NCBI GenBank assembly: GCA_029210625.1
Contig: JARGFU010000030.1
Span: 1 to 49,726 of the forward strand
Reading direction: 5' to 3'
Length of the DNA: 49,726 nt
Source: Deltaproteobacteria bacterium
GTDB lineage: Bacteria > Myxococcota > Myxococcia > SLRQ01
Position 1 is the first letter of the stretch. The number at the start of each line of letters is the position of its first letter. The position numbers and the translations under genes were made by a program. Under the pieces are notes generated by a model, which did no database searches, had not been told where the DNA came from, and saw nothing but the letters and a program-made list of their open reading frames with translations. Shown here piece after piece: positions 2,742 through 35,219 of the stretch.

Positions 2742-3851
2742 TCAGGCGCGCCCGCGCTCCTCGAGCTCCGCGGTGGCCTGGGCGAGGAACTCGCGCAGCT
2801 CGCGATCGAGGCGCAGCCGCTGGGCCTCCTCCTGCCCCTCGACGGCGAAGGGCGTGAGGTCCACCACCCGGTGGGGCGGCTCGGTATGACCCCAGCGCAC
2901 GGGATCCATGTGGAGGAAGAGCTGGAAGGTGGGCACGCCCACCGCGACCGAGAGGTGCATCGGGCCGGTGTTGTTGCAGACGGTCACGCCCGCGGCGACC
3001 ATCAACGCCGCCAGATCGTCGAGGCTGGTCGGCGGCGCGAGGCGCGCGCCGGGCACGGCGTCGGCGACGTAGCGCGCCAGGCCCTCCTCCCGCGGCCCCC
3101 AGGTGATCAGGGGCGTGCGGCCCGCGTCCACCAGGGTCTCGCAGATGCCGGCGAAGACCTCGGGGGGGAGGCGGCGCCAGTCCAGCCGGCCCCCGGGGTT
3201 CACGACGGCGAAGCTTCCTTCGCGCACCTCGGCCAGGAGGGTCTCCAGCTCGGGTAAGGTGGCGACCGGGTGGTAGACGAGGTGCTCGACCGGCGACTCG
3301 ATGCCGAGGGGCTCGAGTAAAGCGATGCGCTGCGAGACCTCTCGGCGGGTCTCGGCCAGCGCCGGCACCGGGTGGGTGCGCAGGCCGCCCACCGGCCAGA
3401 TCGCCGCACCGATCACCGCCGAGTGCGGGCCGCAGAGGCGGGCGAGGAGCGCGTGGGTCACGGAGGGCTCGGACCAGTTCCCCTGATCGACGATCACGTC
3501 GTAGCGCCGCTGGCGAAGGGCGCGCAGCTGAGCTCCGCGGCCCAGCCACCAGAAGCGCTCGCGCTCGAAGGGGATCAGGCGATCGACCGCCGGGTGATCC
3601 TCGAGCACCCGCACGCAGCGGGGGTGCACCAGCACGTCCACCTCGGGCTCGTCGGGCAGCCCCTTGAGGGTGGCGAGGACCGGCGTGAGCAGCACGGCCT
3701 CCCCCACCCGGTTGTCGACCCGCACCACCAGGAAGCGCTTGCGCCGGGCGAGGGCCGCCTGCGCCCGCTTCCAGCGCCAGGGGCGCCAGAGGAGAGGGAT
3801 GGCGAGGAGGGCGGCGATCCGCTTCGCGATGCGTTCGAGGGTCTTGAGCAC
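2742..3851 (-). CDS. Glycosyltransferase family 9 (heptosyltransferase-like)
   Basis: A GT9 (heptosyltransferase) family protein of 369 aa if started at the GTG at 3851. It shows the family layout: FLVVRVDNRVGEAVLLTPVL near the N-terminus, an acceptor-side domain, then the ADP-heptose binding half with VCNNTGPMHLSVAVGVP and FQLF. An ATG at 3924 would give 394 aa, but the extra 25 residues are encoded by the 7-bp repeat array (they read as SSKLEAR-like repeats) and are followed by a natural family-like start, so they are probably untranslated. It probably adds a heptose or similar sugar to the LPS core; the exact sugar and acceptor cannot be told. It lies 60 nt upstream of the yicC-type gene. 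Confidence 0.82.
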   Translation of the reverse strand: MLKTLERIAKRIAALLAIPLLWRPWRWKRAQAALARRKRFLVVRVDNRVGEAVLLTPVLATLKGLPDEPEVDVLVHPRCVRVLEDHPAVDRLIPFERERFWWLGRGAQLRALRQRRYDVIVDQGNWSEPSVTHALLARLCGPHSAVIGAAIWPVGGLRTHPVPALAETRREVSQRIALLEPLGIESPVEHLVYHPVATLPELETLLAEVREGSFAVVNPGGRLDWRRLPPEVFAGICETLVDAGRTPLITWGPREEGLARYVADAVPGARLAPPTSLDDLAALMVAAGVTVCNNTGPMHLSVAVGVPTFQLFLHMDPVRWGHTEPPHRVVDLTPFAVEGQEEAQRLRLDRELREFLAQATAELEERGRA

Positions 3852-3854
3852 TTT

Positions 3855-4019
3855 TGGGCTTCGAGCTTCGAGCTTCGAGCTTCGAGCTTTGGGCTGTGAG
3901 CTTTGAGCTTCGAGCTGCGAGCTCATGGCTTCGAGCTATCAGCTTCCCGGATCCGGGGCCATGGGTCTCGCTTCGTGGCCGCCAGGCGCCCTCACAGCTC
4001 GCAGCTCACAGCTCGCAGC
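3855..4019. repeat. Heptad-repeat element 1 (two 7-bp arrays in opposite orientation)
   Basis: Thirteen consecutive 7-bp units (3855-3945) follow the consensus CGAGCTT, with the GGCT or AGCT core kept in every unit. After a 46-bp unique spacer (3946-3991) come four units alternating TCACAGC and TCGCAGC (3992-4019), which are the reverse orientation of CGAGCTG-type units. The element occupies nearly the whole gap between the divergent GT9 and GT4 genes and starts 3 bp from the proposed GT9 start codon. A related element lies at 33961-34093. Confidence 0.85.
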
Positions 4020-4061
4020 CGAAGACTGACAACCCCTCTCGCCCATGCGACTAATCGAGCC

Positions 4062-5222
4062 ATGGAGTCGCTCTCGATCCTCGTCGTCACCGACGCCTGG
4101 AAGTGGTTCGCCGAGGCCGAGCAGCTCGCGCTGGCCTGCGAGGTGCTCGCCGCACGGGGACACCGGATCGAGGTGGCCTGCCAGCCCGAGTCGCCGGTGC
4201 GCGCGCGCCTCTCCGGGGTGGCCCGTCGCTTCCACGATCTGCCGGGGCTGCGCGGCCCTGCCTCGCCCCTCGAGCCCCTGCGCAACGTCGGGCGCCTGCG
4301 GCGCGTCCTGCGGGAGGGCGCGTTCGACCTGGTCCACGCCTACCGCAGCCCCCCTCACGGGCTTGCCCTGACCGCCCTGCGGGGCTGGGGCCGCCGGCGC
4401 CCGGGTCTGGTGCGCACCCGCGGCGGGGCCCAGCCGATCACCGGCGGCGCCGCGAACCGGATGATCTACCAGGGCCTCACCGACGCGGTGCTCGCCACCT
4501 CGACGACGATCCGCGAGGACCTGATCCGCCTGGGGCTCGCGCCCGACGCCGTCACCCTCCTGCCGAACGTGGTCTCGACCGATCGCCTGGCGGGGGCGGA
4601 CGGCGCGGCCTTCCGCCGGGAGGTGCGGCTGCCCGCCGAGGGCCCGGTGGTCGGCGTGCTCGGCCGCTTCGCGAAGGTGAAGGGGCACCGCTACCTCGTC
4701 GAGGCCCTGCCCCGCCTGCTGGAGGTGCACCGCGACCTGCGGGTCTGCCTGGTGGGCCCGGAGGCCGACGGGGCGGAGGTCGAGGCCCTCGCGAGGGCCG
4801 AGGCGCTGGGCGTGCGCGATCACGTGGTGCTGGTGGGCGAGCGCGACGATCCCGGCTCGGTGCTGGCGGCCCTCGACGTGGTCGCCGTGCCCTCCGTCGG
4901 CTCGGAGGTGATCGCCCGGGTGCCCCTGGAGGCCATGGCCCTCGGCCGCCCGGTAGTGGCCAGCCGGGTGGGCGTGCTCCCCGAGATCATCCGCGAGCCG
5001 GAGAGCGGCTGGCTGGTGCCGCCGGCCGATCCGAAGGCCCTCGCCCACGCCGTGCTCGAGGCCCTCGATCCGCAGGAGGGGCGACGCCGCGGCGCCGCCG
5101 CGCGGCGCCAGGTGGAGAGCCAGCACCTGCCGGAGCACCTCGGCGAGGCCCTCGAGGCCGCCTACTCCCGGGTGCTCGCGTCGAGGGATCCGAGGCGCTC
5201 GAGCAGCTCGCTGGTGGAGTGA
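4062..5222 (+). CDS. Glycosyltransferase family 4 (group 1)
   Basis: A GT-B fold glycosyltransferase of 386 aa. The N-terminal domain begins ILVVTDAWKWFAEAEQLAL. The C-terminal nucleotide-sugar binding domain carries VVGVLGRFAKVKGHRYLVEA, CLVGPEADG, and the signature VPLEAMALGRPVVASRVGVLPEII (a GPGTF-type E-x7-E region). It probably acts on the cytoplasmic face of the inner membrane, adding a sugar to LPS core or a polysaccharide. The ATG at 4062 is preferred; upstream in-frame codons lie in the heptad repeat. Its last 61 nt overlap, convergently, the 3' end of the heptose nucleotidyltransferase gene. The neighbourhood suggests LPS core assembly; the sugar is unknown. Confidence 0.85.
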   Translation: MESLSILVVTDAWKWFAEAEQLALACEVLAARGHRIEVACQPESPVRARLSGVARRFHDLPGLRGPASPLEPLRNVGRLRRVLREGAFDLVHAYRSPPHGLALTALRGWGRRRPGLVRTRGGAQPITGGAANRMIYQGLTDAVLATSTTIREDLIRLGLAPDAVTLLPNVVSTDRLAGADGAAFRREVRLPAEGPVVGVLGRFAKVKGHRYLVEALPRLLEVHRDLRVCLVGPEADGAEVEALARAEALGVRDHVVLVGERDDPGSVLAALDVVAVPSVGSEVIARVPLEAMALGRPVVASRVGVLPEIIREPESGWLVPPADPKALAHAVLEALDPQEGRRRGAAARRQVESQHLPEHLGEALEAAYSRVLASRDPRRSSSSLVE

Positions 5223-14244: not shown

Positions 14245-15416
14245 CCCGGCTCACCCCCGTCGACGTTCACGTCCACGTCCACGTCCACGGCCTCTCCCGT
14301 GGACCCGTCATCAACCGGCGGCTCGACCGGGACCAGCGAAGTGCCTGACAAGATCCAAAGGAACCTCCGCGCCCCGAGGAGCCACGGCCGCGCCAGCTCC
14401 ACCTCCGCGTGCCACCGCCCCGGCTGCGAGGCCGCTCTCACCTCGGAGCCCTCGACCGCCGCCACCTCCACGCCATCGCGGAAGAGCAGGAGCCGCGCCC
14501 GCGCCCCGGCCGGCACCCCGGCCCCCAGCCGCGCGACGATCTCCTCCCCGGTGGTGTCCAGCACGAAGCCCGACGCGTCGGCCAGCCCATCCACCGCGCA
14601 GAAGAAGCGCCCCTCCCTCAGCGCCTCGATCACCGAGGCCGCCCGGACCTCCGCCTCATCCCCGGCGAGCGCCCCGGGCGCGAGGTGGGTCCCCAGCACC
14701 CGGAAGACGGGCGGGTAGCCCGGCAGCCCGTGGGCGTCGTGCCCGCAGAAGCCCTGCTGCAGCCCGCCCTCGGCCAGCGCCCGGTGGAAGCGCTCCCGCG
14801 CCTCGTCCACTCCGTCGAGGAGGTGGAGCACGGCGACGTCGGGGCTGGCTGGATAGGAGAGGACGGCCGTGAGGAGGGTCAGGGGCGAGCGCAGGGCGAC
14901 CCGGTAGGCCGAGTCGGCGGAGAGCACCTCCATCGCGTCGATGCCCTCGAAGGGCCCCTCCCAGGGCCGCCGCAGGTTCACCGGGTGGGAGAGGCTGACC
15001 AGGCTCCCGCTCGCGCGGGCCGCGCCCACGGGATCGTCCCGGCGCAGCGGCCAGCCCGCCACCTCCCCTCCCCCGTAGGCCAGGATGTGCCCGGCGCTGG
15101 TGGAGAGCTCCACCCCCGGGATCACCAGCACGCCCTCCTGCTCGGCGGCGGGATCCGGGGTGACGTTGTGATCGGCCAGCACGATGAAGTCGAGGCCGGC
15201 CTCGCGGGCGTGGCGGGCGACCTCCTCCACGGGGGCGCGACCGTCGCTGCGCGTGGTGTGCACGTGGAGAGCGCCGCGCGCAGCGGCCGAGCCGTCCGGC
15301 GTCCGGGGGGGAGGCAGCTCGAGGGTCGCGACCCGCAGGAGCCAGAGCGCCCAGAGGGCGAGGAGCCCCCCGAGCAGCCTCAGTGCGCTGCGGAGCAGGC
15401 GACGCCACCGCTTCAT
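14241..15416 (-). CDS. Membrane-anchored PHP-domain metal-dependent hydrolase
   Basis: A 391-aa protein with one N-terminal membrane segment (residues about 10-30) and a polymerase-and-histidinol-phosphatase (PHP, CehA/McbA-like) domain. The metal ligands are all present in order: H51 and H53 with D58 (HVHTTRSDG), D82-H83 (ADHN), E103 (PGVELST), H110 (GHILAYG), H144 (SLSHPVN), D227/H229 (GHDAHG). A beta-rich C-terminal domain of about 120 residues follows. PHP enzymes hydrolyse phosphoesters. The domain should face the periplasm. Its place between msbA and an acyltransferase, with 4-bp overlaps both sides, suggests a role in lipid A or LPS modification; the substrate is unknown. The tail DVDVDVNVDGG comes from a short hexamer repeat. 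Confidence 0.8.
   Translation of the reverse strand: MKRWRRLLRSALRLLGGLLALWALWLLRVATLELPPPRTPDGSAAARGALHVHTTRSDGRAPVEEVARHAREAGLDFIVLADHNVTPDPAAEQEGVLVIPGVELSTSAGHILAYGGGEVAGWPLRRDDPVGAARASGSLVSLSHPVNLRRPWEGPFEGIDAMEVLSADSAYRVALRSPLTLLTAVLSYPASPDVAVLHLLDGVDEARERFHRALAEGGLQQGFCGHDAHGLPGYPPVFRVLGTHLAPGALAGDEAEVRAASVIEALREGRFFCAVDGLADASGFVLDTTGEEIVARLGAGVPAGARARLLLFRDGVEVAAVEGSEVRAASQPGRWHAEVELARPWLLGARRFLWILSGTSLVPVEPPVDDGSTGEAVDVDVDVNVDGGEPG
14260..14290. repeat. Short GTCCAC/ACGTCC hexamer tandem repeat at the PHP gene 3' end
   Basis: About five near-identical 6-bp units encode the DVDVDVNVDG tail of the PHP protein. Unit number changes would stay in frame and alter only the tail length. Confidence 0.7.
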
Positions 15417-33034: not shown

Positions 33035-33961
33035 ATGTCCGTCTTTCGACTCACCTTTCTCGGCACCTCGGCAGCCCAACCAACGGCCCGCCGAAATCTT
33101 TCCGCCACGGCCCTCCGGGTCCACGGAGACCACATCCTCCTGGACTGCGGGGAGGGCACCCAGCGCCAGATGCTGCGCTACGGGACCGGCTTCGCCACCG
33201 GCCTGGTGCTCTTCACCCACTTCCACGCCGACCACTACCTGGGGATCATCGGGCACCTGCGGACCCTGGCCATGAACGGCCGGGAGGCGCCCCTGACCCT
33301 CCACGGGCCCGGCCCCACCCTCCAGTCCCTCCTGGCCCGGCTCATCCACCTGGGCTTCCGGAACATGCCCTTCCCCCTGGAGCTCGAGACCCTGGAGGAC
33401 GGCCAGGTGCTCGACCGCGGGGCCTACACCATCCAGGCCGTCCGGATGCTGCACCGCACCCCCACCCTGGGCTACGTCTTCCGCGAGCCCCCGCGCCCCG
33501 GCCGCTTCGATCCGACGGCCGCCCGGGAGCTCGGGGTCCCCGAGGGCCCCCTCTTCGGGCGCCTGCAGAAGGGCGAGACCATCACCCTCCCCGACGGCAG
33601 GCAGATCGAGCCCGGGCAGGTCCTGGGTCCCTCCCGTCCCGGCCGCAAGGTGGCCTTCTCCGGGGACACCGGCCCCTGCGACGCCTTCGCCGAGGCCGCC
33701 GCCGGCGCCGACCTCATCGTCCACGAGTCGACCTTCGGGGACAGCGAGCTGATGCGCGCGAAGGAGACCACCCACAGCACGGCCCGCCAGGCCGGTGAGA
33801 TCGCCGCGCGGGCCGGGGCCCGGCAGCTGGTGCTGACCCACTTCTCCAGCCGCTACGACCACACCCCGGAGCTCCTCCGGGATCAGGCCGCCGAGGTCTT
33901 CGGCGGGGAGATCGTCTGCGCTCACGACGGGCTGACGATCGAGGTGCCCTATCGGGCTTGA
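33035..33961 (+). CDS. rnz: Ribonuclease Z
   Basis: RNase Z, 308 aa, a metallo-beta-lactamase fold endonuclease that trims the 3' end of precursor tRNA. The zinc motif HFHADHYLG (HxHxDH) follows VLFTH, the N-terminal FLGTSAAQPTARRNLSATAL is typical, and SGDTGPC, HESTF and TTHSTARQAGEIA with LTHFSSRY complete the site. The start is ambiguous: ATG at 32993 (322 aa) or 33035 (308 aa, family length); the latter is preferred. The stop codon lies on the first base of the heptad-repeat element, which separates it from the convergent prfB. Confidence 0.94.
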   Translation: MSVFRLTFLGTSAAQPTARRNLSATALRVHGDHILLDCGEGTQRQMLRYGTGFATGLVLFTHFHADHYLGIIGHLRTLAMNGREAPLTLHGPGPTLQSLLARLIHLGFRNMPFPLELETLEDGQVLDRGAYTIQAVRMLHRTPTLGYVFREPPRPGRFDPTAARELGVPEGPLFGRLQKGETITLPDGRQIEPGQVLGPSRPGRKVAFSGDTGPCDAFAEAAAGADLIVHESTFGDSELMRAKETTHSTARQAGEIAARAGARQLVLTHFSSRYDHTPELLRDQAAEVFGGEIVCAHDGLTIEVPYRA

Positions 33962-34093
33962 GCTGTCAGCTGTCAGCTATCAGCTCTGCCGTGCTGAACC
34001 GATCCACTGCGACCGATCCTCGGCCGAGACAACCACCGGCAGGCGCTCTTGGCTTCGGCCAGGCTGACAGCTGACAGCTGATAGCTGACAGCT
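33961..34093. repeat. Heptad-repeat element 2 with near-perfect terminal inverted repeats
   Basis: The left arm (33961-33985) has 3.6 heptads of AGCTGTC or AGCTATC type. The right arm (34062-34093) has 4.6 heptads of AGCTGAC or AGCTGAT type. The outermost 25 bp of the two ends are inverted copies with 23 of 25 matches. The 76 bp between the arms (33986-34061) are mostly unique, with a CTCGGCCGAG palindrome. The element fills the whole gap between the convergent rnz and prfB, beginning on the last base of the rnz stop and ending one base before the prfB stop. It could fold into a long cruciform or act as a two-way terminator. Confidence 0.88.
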
Positions 34094-35219
34094 CTAGTCG
34101 GACGGGGCGCCCTGCCCCATCAGGAAGGCCTGGATGAAGCCATCGAGGTCGCCGTCGAGCACCCGCTGGGGGCTGCCGTTCTCGAAGCTGGTCCGGTGGT
34201 CCTTCACCATCTGGTAGGGGGCCAGGACGTAGGAGCGGATCTGGGAGCCGAAGGAGATCTCGGCCTTGGAGGCCTCGACCTTCGCCCGCTCCGCCTCCCG
34301 CTTCTGGATCTCCAGCTCGTAGAGGCGGCTCTTGAGGATCTTCAGGGCCATGTCCCGGTTCTTGTGCTGGCTGCGCTCGTTCTGGCAGCTCACCACGATG
34401 CCGGTCGGCATGTGGGTCATCCGCACGGCCGAGGAGGTCTTGTTCACCTTCTGGCCGCCGGCGCCCGAGGCCCGGAAGACGTCCACCCGGACGTCCTCCT
34501 CCCGAACCTCGATGGCGATGTCGTCGTCGATCTCGGGGCTGACGTAGACCGAGGCGAAGGCGGTGTGGCGCCGGCCGGCGGCGTCGAAGGGAGACATCCG
34601 CACCAGGCGGTGCACCCCGGCCTCGGCCTTGAGGTAGCCGTAGGCGTAGTCGCCCTGGACGATGAGGGCGGCGGACTTGATGCCGGCCTCCTCGCCGTCC
34701 TGGCGGTCCGCCAGCTCCACCTTCCAGTCGTTGCGCTCGGCGAAGCGCCCGTACATCCGCAGGAGCATCTCGGCCCAGTCCTGGGCGTCGACCCCACCCG
34801 CGCCGGAGTTGATCGTGACGATGGCGTTGCGGCCGTCGTCCTCACCGGAGAGCATCCGCTGGAACTCCAGGGCCACGACCTGCTGCTCGCCGATCCGCAC
34901 CTGCTCGGCGACCTCGGCGTACTGGCTCTCGTCGCCCTCCTCGCGGGCGAGCTCGAAGAGCACCTCGGCGTCCTCGACGACCCCGCGGGCCTTCTCGTAG
35001 CCCGCGACGGTGGACTCCACCCGCGACTTCTCCTTGAGCAGGGTCTGCGCCGCGTTCTGGTCGTTCCAGAAGTCGGGGGCCGCGGCGAGCTTCTCTATCT
35101 CCTCCAGGCGAGCCTTGCGCGTGGGGAGGTCAAAGGTACCTCCCGAGCTCGTCGAGCCGGCGGGAGAGATCCTCGAGGCCGTCCTTGATCTCGGATGCGA
35201 TCAGCATGGGGAGCCTCAT
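34094..35219 (-). CDS. prfB: Peptide chain release factor 2, expressed by +1 programmed frameshift
   Basis: RF2, about 374 aa, recognises UGA and UAA stop codons. The C-terminal reading frame has the RF2 SPF motif (MSPFDAAGRRHTAF) and the universal GGQ (SGAGGQKVNKTSSAVR). The first 29 codons are in another frame and end GRYL at an in-frame UGA (35132-35130). The site GGGAGG-TAC-CTT-TGA-C matches the E. coli slippage signal; a +1 shift at CTT continues as D-L-P-T-R. The start ATG (35219) overlaps the lnt stop (ATGA); a second ATG lies at 35207. It is the last gene of the phoH-lnt operon. Confidence 0.95.
35129..35147 (-). promoter_or_regulatory. prfB programmed +1 frameshift site
   Basis: On the minus strand GGGAGG precedes TAC CTT TGA C. 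The internal Shine-Dalgarno-like purine stretch, the slippery CTT and the UGA stop followed by C match the RF2 autoregulatory element. When RF2 is scarce, the ribosome shifts forward at CTT and makes full-length RF2. Coordinates mark the slippery site and the SD-like stretch. Confidence 0.93.

Follow-up and report, generated by a model that had tools for sequence, protein, structure and literature searches.

Heptad-repeat elements of a myxococcotal genome as probable gene-less relatives of elements that carry S23/IVP genes

Main finding

The repeat between two glycosyltransferase genes near the start of the window (the whole 49,726-nucleotide stretch of DNA analysed here) is best read as a non-autonomous representative of a small element dispersed in the genome. 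This element ends in inverted arrays of 7-bp units and would have a gene of the 23S_rRNA_IVP/S23 family (PF05635, IVP below) as its partner. We put the probability of this reading at about three in four. It draws on the fixed anatomy of the elements in the genome of the window, on the inverted arrays that flank IVP genes in this and many other genomes, and on a locus where array and IVP gene are present in some congeners and missing from others.

Two elements in the window

The features considered are collected in Table 1. The earlier note had described facing arrays at the first site. The inverted arrangement is real, while the limits of both arms had to be shifted slightly and the spacer comes to 45 nt, not 46. 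The distance from the array to the likely GTG start of the GT9 gene is 5 nt instead of the 3 bp previously given. TRF scored the two arms at 92 (3858-3946) and 58 (3991-4019). No close copy of the core of element 1 was found among the cores compared.

The related element that the earlier note mentions elsewhere in the window lies at 33961-34093 (element 2). It consists of three left and four right units and occupies the whole stop-to-stop gap between the metallo-beta-lactamase-fold gene and prfB. Both elements lie between protein genes, not in 23S rRNA, and their complementary ends form a predicted stem. That the two halves of the first element could pair as one hairpin is borne out by predicted RNA folding and by the inverted arms. 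The folds of both elements beat 200/200 shuffles (z -4.4 for element 1, -5.3 for element 2), as those of any inverted repeat would.

Table 1. Coordinates of the heptad elements and neighbouring genes (window positions unless a contig is given)
Feature	Position	Strand	Remarks and basis
Element 1, whole	3857..4020		arm-core-inverted arm; divergent intergenic region, GT9 vs GT4-type genes
Element 1, left heptad arm	3857..3947	+	GGCTTCG, then AGCT-DYS units; break at 3923-3926 (one slip)
Element 1, core	3948..3992		45 nt
Element 1, right heptad arm	3993..4020	-	inverted, AGCC at end
GT9 (heptosyltransferase-type) gene	2742..3851	-	likely GTG start 3849-3851; Pfam PF01075 and gene call
Group-1/GT4-type glycosyltransferase gene	4062..5222	+	Pfam and gene call
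Element 2, whole	33961..34093		core family B, between convergent stop codons
Element 2, left arm	33961..33984	+	AGCT-DTC type; overlaps TGA stop of upstream gene
Element 2, core	33985..34062		family B (six copies in sampled 1.64 Mb), 78 nt
Element 2, right arm	34063..34093	-	adjoins prfB stop codon
Metallo-beta-lactamase-fold gene	33035..33961	+	ends in element 2; Pfam PF12706 and gene call
prfB-like release factor gene	34094..35020	-	ends at element 2; Pfam PF00472/PF03462 and gene call
AGCT-DYS-bracketed PF05635 gene	C15:154364-154675		inside element C15:154290-154714; arms at C15:154290 and 154701

The family in the genome of the window

The four-unit pattern (AGCTNNN)3AGCT has 71 matches in the 6.1-Mb genome compared with one for the reversed control, so further copies do exist and the dispersed family proposed in the earlier note is supported. 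Element anatomy was studied in 1.64 Mb of the genome, taken as tiles; some of these were placed around known matches, so element densities are not genome averages. The sample holds 57 arm clusters. Both arms are present in 25 of them, always in the order + then - and never the reverse, and single arms make up 31 of the 57, a count that includes 2-unit chance matches.

The composition of the arms is equally regular. GGCT is the outermost unit in 50 of 79 arms outside genes but in only 1 of 214 inner units. The variable triplets, found through AGCT spacing alone, fit DYS or its complement SRH in 173 of 180 cases. The grammar of an element can be summarised as outer GGCT...AGCC, AGCT-DYS units between them and a + then - polarity of the arms. 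The arm type (DTC or DYG) is concordant in 27/27 pairs (p = 6e-5). These are not perfect simple-sequence repeats, given that the units vary at three positions and both arms occur in 25/57 clusters. At the level of single units, an element's own arms pair no better (-1008) than arms exchanged among elements (-1022 ± 13 in permutations), so we make no claim for a finely selected stem.

The core, or loop, reaches up to 276 nt. Two core families were recognised in the 1.64-Mb sample, A with 5 copies and B with 6, and neither was found there without arms. No target-site duplication was seen by eye in the flanks of 42 elements of this genome or at the accB-accC site described below.

Two heptad elements (C5:110135-110476 and C4:22513-22803) each enclose the same 167-bp sequence, 97% identical between them. 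This insert has imperfect inverted ends of its own and is probably a further small mobile element nested in the heptad element. Genes bracketed by arms at C23:57837-58520 and C25:13031-13655 were also considered as candidates and set aside as a probable coincidence of single arms.

Placement relative to genes

A purpose-written gene finder called 1286 genes in the 1.64 Mb (91% coverage) and recovered the five Pfam-supported genes of the window. Counting elements of at least 3 units and intergenic regions of at least 40 bp, and leaving aside seven 2-unit matches inside genes, the share of intergenic regions with an element is 24/65 for convergent, 15/380 for co-oriented and 2/174 for divergent gene pairs. 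The convergent class differs from the rest (24/65 vs 17/554) with an odds ratio of 18 (p = 2e-15). The distance of element edges to stop codons is mostly -1 to 5 nt. This is a family of gene 3' ends, and the position at the GT9 start is an exception.

As element 1 is one of only two elements of the sample in divergent intergenic regions, its position is atypical of the family. The roles once suggested for it, setting promoter distance or extending a protein, find no support in these counts, and we dropped them as a family trait.

Convergent gene pairs that lack an element mostly have gaps near zero, and 27 such pairs in the sample overlap by CTAG. Insertion at the CTAG of overlapping convergent stops was considered and set aside, as stop codon use near elements of this genome (TGA 30, TAG 15) resembles the background (TGA 722, TAG 445, TAA 43). 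No T run was noticed by eye after the hairpins of this genome.

Inverted arrays around IVP genes

The genome has three PF05635 genes, which code for a four-helix bundle, and each is flanked by inverted arrays, built of AGCT-DYS units in one case (Table 1), of GGCTSAC in another and of the hexad ACGTNN in the third. The GGCTSAC and ACGTNN units have further occurrences in the genome, and ACGT at period 6 was already prominent in an earlier unbiased scan. An AAAA signal in that scan proved to be an artefact of runs of N read as A. The window itself contains an ACGT run of period 6 at 14263-14284, within a predicted gene; it is probably coding sequence rather than a hexad-family arm.

The association extends across phyla. 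It was assessed at 60 IVP loci, half of them taken from array-bearing genomes and the other 30 from Myxococcota, with the three discovery loci among the latter. Arrays of period 6-8 within 330 bp were present on the left of 42 and on the right of 37 of the 60 genes, compared with 6 and 6 in control windows placed farther away. Left and right arrays were mutually inverted at 24/60 loci vs 112/3540 mismatched pairs (3.2%), and at 22/57 when the three discovery loci were removed. The other 36 of the 60 have no mutually inverted pair at the threshold used, with truncated loci kept in the count. An IVP gene flanked by heptads (TCGA-GNG) is also found in G113, a genome of the same class and another genus.

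Co-occurrence at the genome level points the same way. PF05635 is present in 43 of 48 array-bearing genomes, namely in 38 of 40 from the AGCT scan, which were picked from the 114 stretches listed, and in 5 of 8 chosen Myxococcota. Array-bearing genomes with no PF05635 match are G054 (75% complete), G096, G141, G200 and G228. Among 195 Myxococcota 56 have PF05635, and so do all seven genomes with at least 4 TCGA four-unit matches. In Gammaproteobacteria, PF05635 was detected in 9/11 genomes with GGGANTN arrays vs 6/40 picked negatives (p = 7e-5), and at three loci (L360, L361 and L369) IVP genes lie inside inverted GGGANTN arrays. The X. campestris IVP XCC0516 (PDB 2GSC) was matched at E 9e-7. 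A plasmid search with an IVP protein returned 27 records, mostly cyanobacterial.

The unit length follows the IVP lineage. A tree was built from 82 IVP domains and 104 columns (22 of 104 rows having been removed as overlapping, short or duplicate). On it, period 6 vs 7/8 needs 6 changes, compared with a mean of 24.6 in shuffled data and with 0/500 shuffles as low, a result inflated by near-copies and by the shared ancestry of the genomes. But both periods coexist in the genome of the window itself, where two IVPs have heptads and one has hexads. A tentative sequence link between an IVP element and a gene-less one of this genome comes from a single 37-column alignment, in which the inner left end of the AGCT-IVP element matches the core at C15:161377 (z 8.3, 0/200 shuffles, best of 80 comparisons); this core is one member of family A and neither of the two window cores.

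Some observations on divergent IVP genes should be added. In G190, G047, G058, G018, G076 and other Myxococcota, a divergent IVP clade is multi-copy and often forms close opposite-strand gene pairs. G018 also has an HNH endonuclease-like gene (L309:3828-5231, from a by-eye reading of the frame) in about 25 copies flanked by CGACCN hexads, the same hexads that flank the divergent IVP pairs. Arrays are therefore not exclusive to IVP, and the HNH-like gene may be a second gene exploiting them.

Arrays in other genomes

AGCT four-unit heptads were absent from all 37 relatives searched, all of them from other genera, and the only genome of the same family likewise lacks such an array. They occur in 4 of 195 Myxococcota genomes, whereas arrays with a TCGA core are what other Myxococcota have. 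When GTDB contigs were scanned for AGCT heptads of five units, at least 114 stretches in many phyla were found. Among the matches listed, and with 17 contig-edge clusters and 25 clusters within ORFs left out, array edges are no more than 6 nt from a stop codon in 35/97 cases, and from a start codon in 4/75. Convergent intergenic regions are not enriched among the matches listed (23/86 clusters vs 85/407 intergenic regions, counting those of 40 bp or more). The convergent bias is thus a trait of the window's genome while the stop-codon bias is general.

Other unit sequences show similar arrangements. The TCGA-GNG heptads of G113 are dispersed in inverted pairs behind stop codons, and the stops beside them lean to TAG (13/20 vs 91/258 in the background). 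GGGANTN heptads were found in 11 of 369 Gammaproteobacteria.

Presence and absence among congeners

Two gene junctions could be compared among the eight species of the G601 genus. Between accB and accC, G601 and G608 have a block of array, IVP gene and array. The stop-to-ATG distance is 470 nt in G601, where the IVP gene is frame-shifted, and 483 nt in G608. There is no array in G605 (13 nt), G606 (11 nt), G604 (13 nt), G603 (13 nt) and G609 (14 nt). The accB-accC flanks of G605 are 94-98% identical, yet the gap there is just 13 nt. In the eighth genome, G607, the site was left unparsed, with 71 nt between BLAST pieces. This pattern could reflect precise loss instead of gain, but five of the eight species are empty.

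The guaB-guaA junction (L409-L416) holds a gene-less heptad hairpin in G601 and G605, where it was seen directly, and in G608, where it was a BLAST match. In G604 and G609 a terminator-like hairpin with a T run takes the place of the heptad element. The gene-less guaB-guaA element and the IVP element of the same genome have, by eye, a short common stretch next to the right arm.

Comparison with known systems

In REP/RAYT systems a single gene lies between inverted repeats and is accompanied by many gene-less intergenic hairpin copies. REP, BIME and REPIN sequences with their RAYT gene resemble our elements in just this respect. Their partner, however, is a Y1 tyrosine transposase and here it is S23/IVP. 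The REP tag GTAG/CGTC, as given in the relevant part of PMC3733652, is absent here, where the ends are GGCT...AGCC with AGCT heptads. MITEs are likewise short and gene-less, with inverted ends and a related coding element, but no target-site duplication was seen and no DDE transposase identified in our case.

The 23S rRNA intervening sequences (IVS) of Coxiella, Leptospira and others share stem-forming ends around a PF05635/S23 ORF and have been deemed selfish or formerly mobile. They are located in rRNA helices and cut by RNase III, whereas the elements described here lie in intergenic regions of protein genes and most have no ORF. For the Coxiella IVS, the sections of PMC4990558 on this sequence describe tandem heptamers that vary between strains and immediately precede the S23p ORF, and discuss IVS mobility.

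Dispersed heptads are also known in their own right. Xanthomonas GGGANTN and Nostoc GGGGAYT repeats, as presented in the passages of Rehm 2015 (PMC4692102) devoted to them, have 7-bp units with fixed and variable positions, are intergenic, form convergent inverted pairs and lie near the end of the upstream ORF. Those passages treat the repeats as G-quadruplex formers and draw no link to a protein gene, while in our data GGGANTN brackets IVP genes. Beggiatoaceae TAACTGA and Geobacter metallireducens heptads are dispersed and intergenic too, the latter partly as facing pairs; they differ in unit sequence, and the portions of the reports describing them name no partner gene.

Alternative explanations

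The repeats might serve the host as 3'-end structures, the hairpins being kept as two-way terminators or protectors of RNA 3' ends, with mobility ancient or incidental. We give this a modest chance, well short of even. Elements in 24/65 convergent intergenic regions, edges mostly within 5 nt of stops, the strong predicted hairpins of both window elements and the terminator-like hairpin with T run in two guaB-guaA species without the element all fit it. It sits less well with hairpins that lack a T run in the window's genome (by eye), with arms that lack unit-by-unit complementarity, with loops of up to 276 nt and with the many convergent pairs of the same genome that have a gap near 0 and no element. 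Such a role is in any case compatible with the mobile-element reading and not exclusive of it. Local slippage is a quite improbable source of the elements as a whole: heptads would arise at each site by polymerase slippage (an explanation cited from Mrazek 2007) and be tolerated at 3' ends. Heptameric repeats are over-represented in bacteria, according to the pertinent parts of PMC4679880 and PMC4692102, array lengths vary widely, and 31/57 clusters are single-armed (2-unit chance matches included), all as slippage would have it. The fixed polarity of the arms, the terminal GGCT, the concordant unit type in 27/27 pairs, the common cores and the inverted arrays around IVP genes are not predicted by it. 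Slippage may still be behind changes in copy number within an arm.

The arrays could also be pre-existing landing sites for IVP and HNH genes and not the ends of an IVP element. One hexad unit of G018 does flank both IVP pairs and many HNH-like genes, and in G070 an orthologous flank consists of 147 bp of hexads with no IVP seen adjoining. But the empty accB-accC sites of 11-14 nt are free of arrays, the arrays on the two sides are inverted and not direct copies, and the period tracks the IVP lineage (6 changes vs 24.6 expected), which makes landing sites unlikely. A G-quadruplex or another regulatory function tied to the unit sequence, which has been suggested for Xanthomonas GGGAATC, seems scarcely credible for the family. 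The Xanthomonas repeats are alike in being heterogeneous 7-mers, often of four units, that form convergent inverted pairs close to where the upstream ORF ends, as far as the account in PMC4692102 covers them. AGCT-DYS and TCGA-GNG units, however, have no G tracts, in contrast to G-quadruplex heptads, and still share the architecture, and GGGANTN arrays bracket IVP genes as well (L360, L361, L369).

Proposed mechanism

Under the preferred reading, that of a mobile element with an IVP partner, the IVP gene would be the autonomous partner and the window elements derivatives that keep its ends. IVP would act on the arrays, and the copies without a gene would make use of the protein encoded elsewhere. 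The kinship is modelled on that of MITEs with transposons and of REPs with RAYTs. IVP is not known to have a nuclease or polymerase domain, so the catalytic step would be supplied by something else, which we suggest more tentatively. A typical DDE transposase is disfavoured, as no target-site duplication was seen. IVP is presumably related to the Avd protein of diversity-generating retroelements. The TRAP ring binds RNA triplets, and an IVP ring reading 7-nt units would resemble it. IVP is cited as a homopentameric toroid in the part of PMC4990558 that deals with it. With less assurance we speculate that the IVP oligomer may bind the arrayed units as RNA or as a single-stranded DNA hairpin. 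The persistence of copies behind stop codons, clearest between convergent genes, may reflect either tolerance of insertion at such sites or a role of the hairpin as a 3'-end structure working in both directions.

A broader proposal, which in our judgement could equally well prove right or wrong, is that S23/IVP proteins define a class of mobile elements found throughout bacteria and distinct from the known transposases, that the small four-helix-bundle toroid reads the 6-, 7- or 8-bp period of the end arrays according to lineage, and that gene-less derivatives make up much of the bacterial excess of intergenic heptamers, Xanthomonas GGGAATC included.

Significance

A search of titles and abstracts in open-licence PMC papers, a scope beyond which most subscription papers fall, found no paper linking S23/IVP genes to dispersed heptads. 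The nearest prior report, judging by its sections on the IVS, is that of the Coxiella heptamers upstream of the S23p ORF (PMC4990558). What appears to be new here is the S23-bearing IVS outside rRNA, together with its probable gene-less derivatives.

Heptameric intergenic repeats have turned up again and again in unrelated bacteria and have so far been explained locally each time, by slippage, G-quadruplexes or unknown regulators. S23/IVP proteins, familiar from rRNA intervening sequences, have had no function assigned to them. With the two connected, a candidate agent for the repeats and a candidate substrate for S23/IVP are at hand, and both become testable. The link also accounts for the hairpins that fill convergent gene junctions of a compact genome. 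If the broader proposal is true, 23S rRNA IVSs would be merely the copies that landed in rRNA. Our results suggest that this class of elements is widespread and little recognised among bacterial mobile elements.
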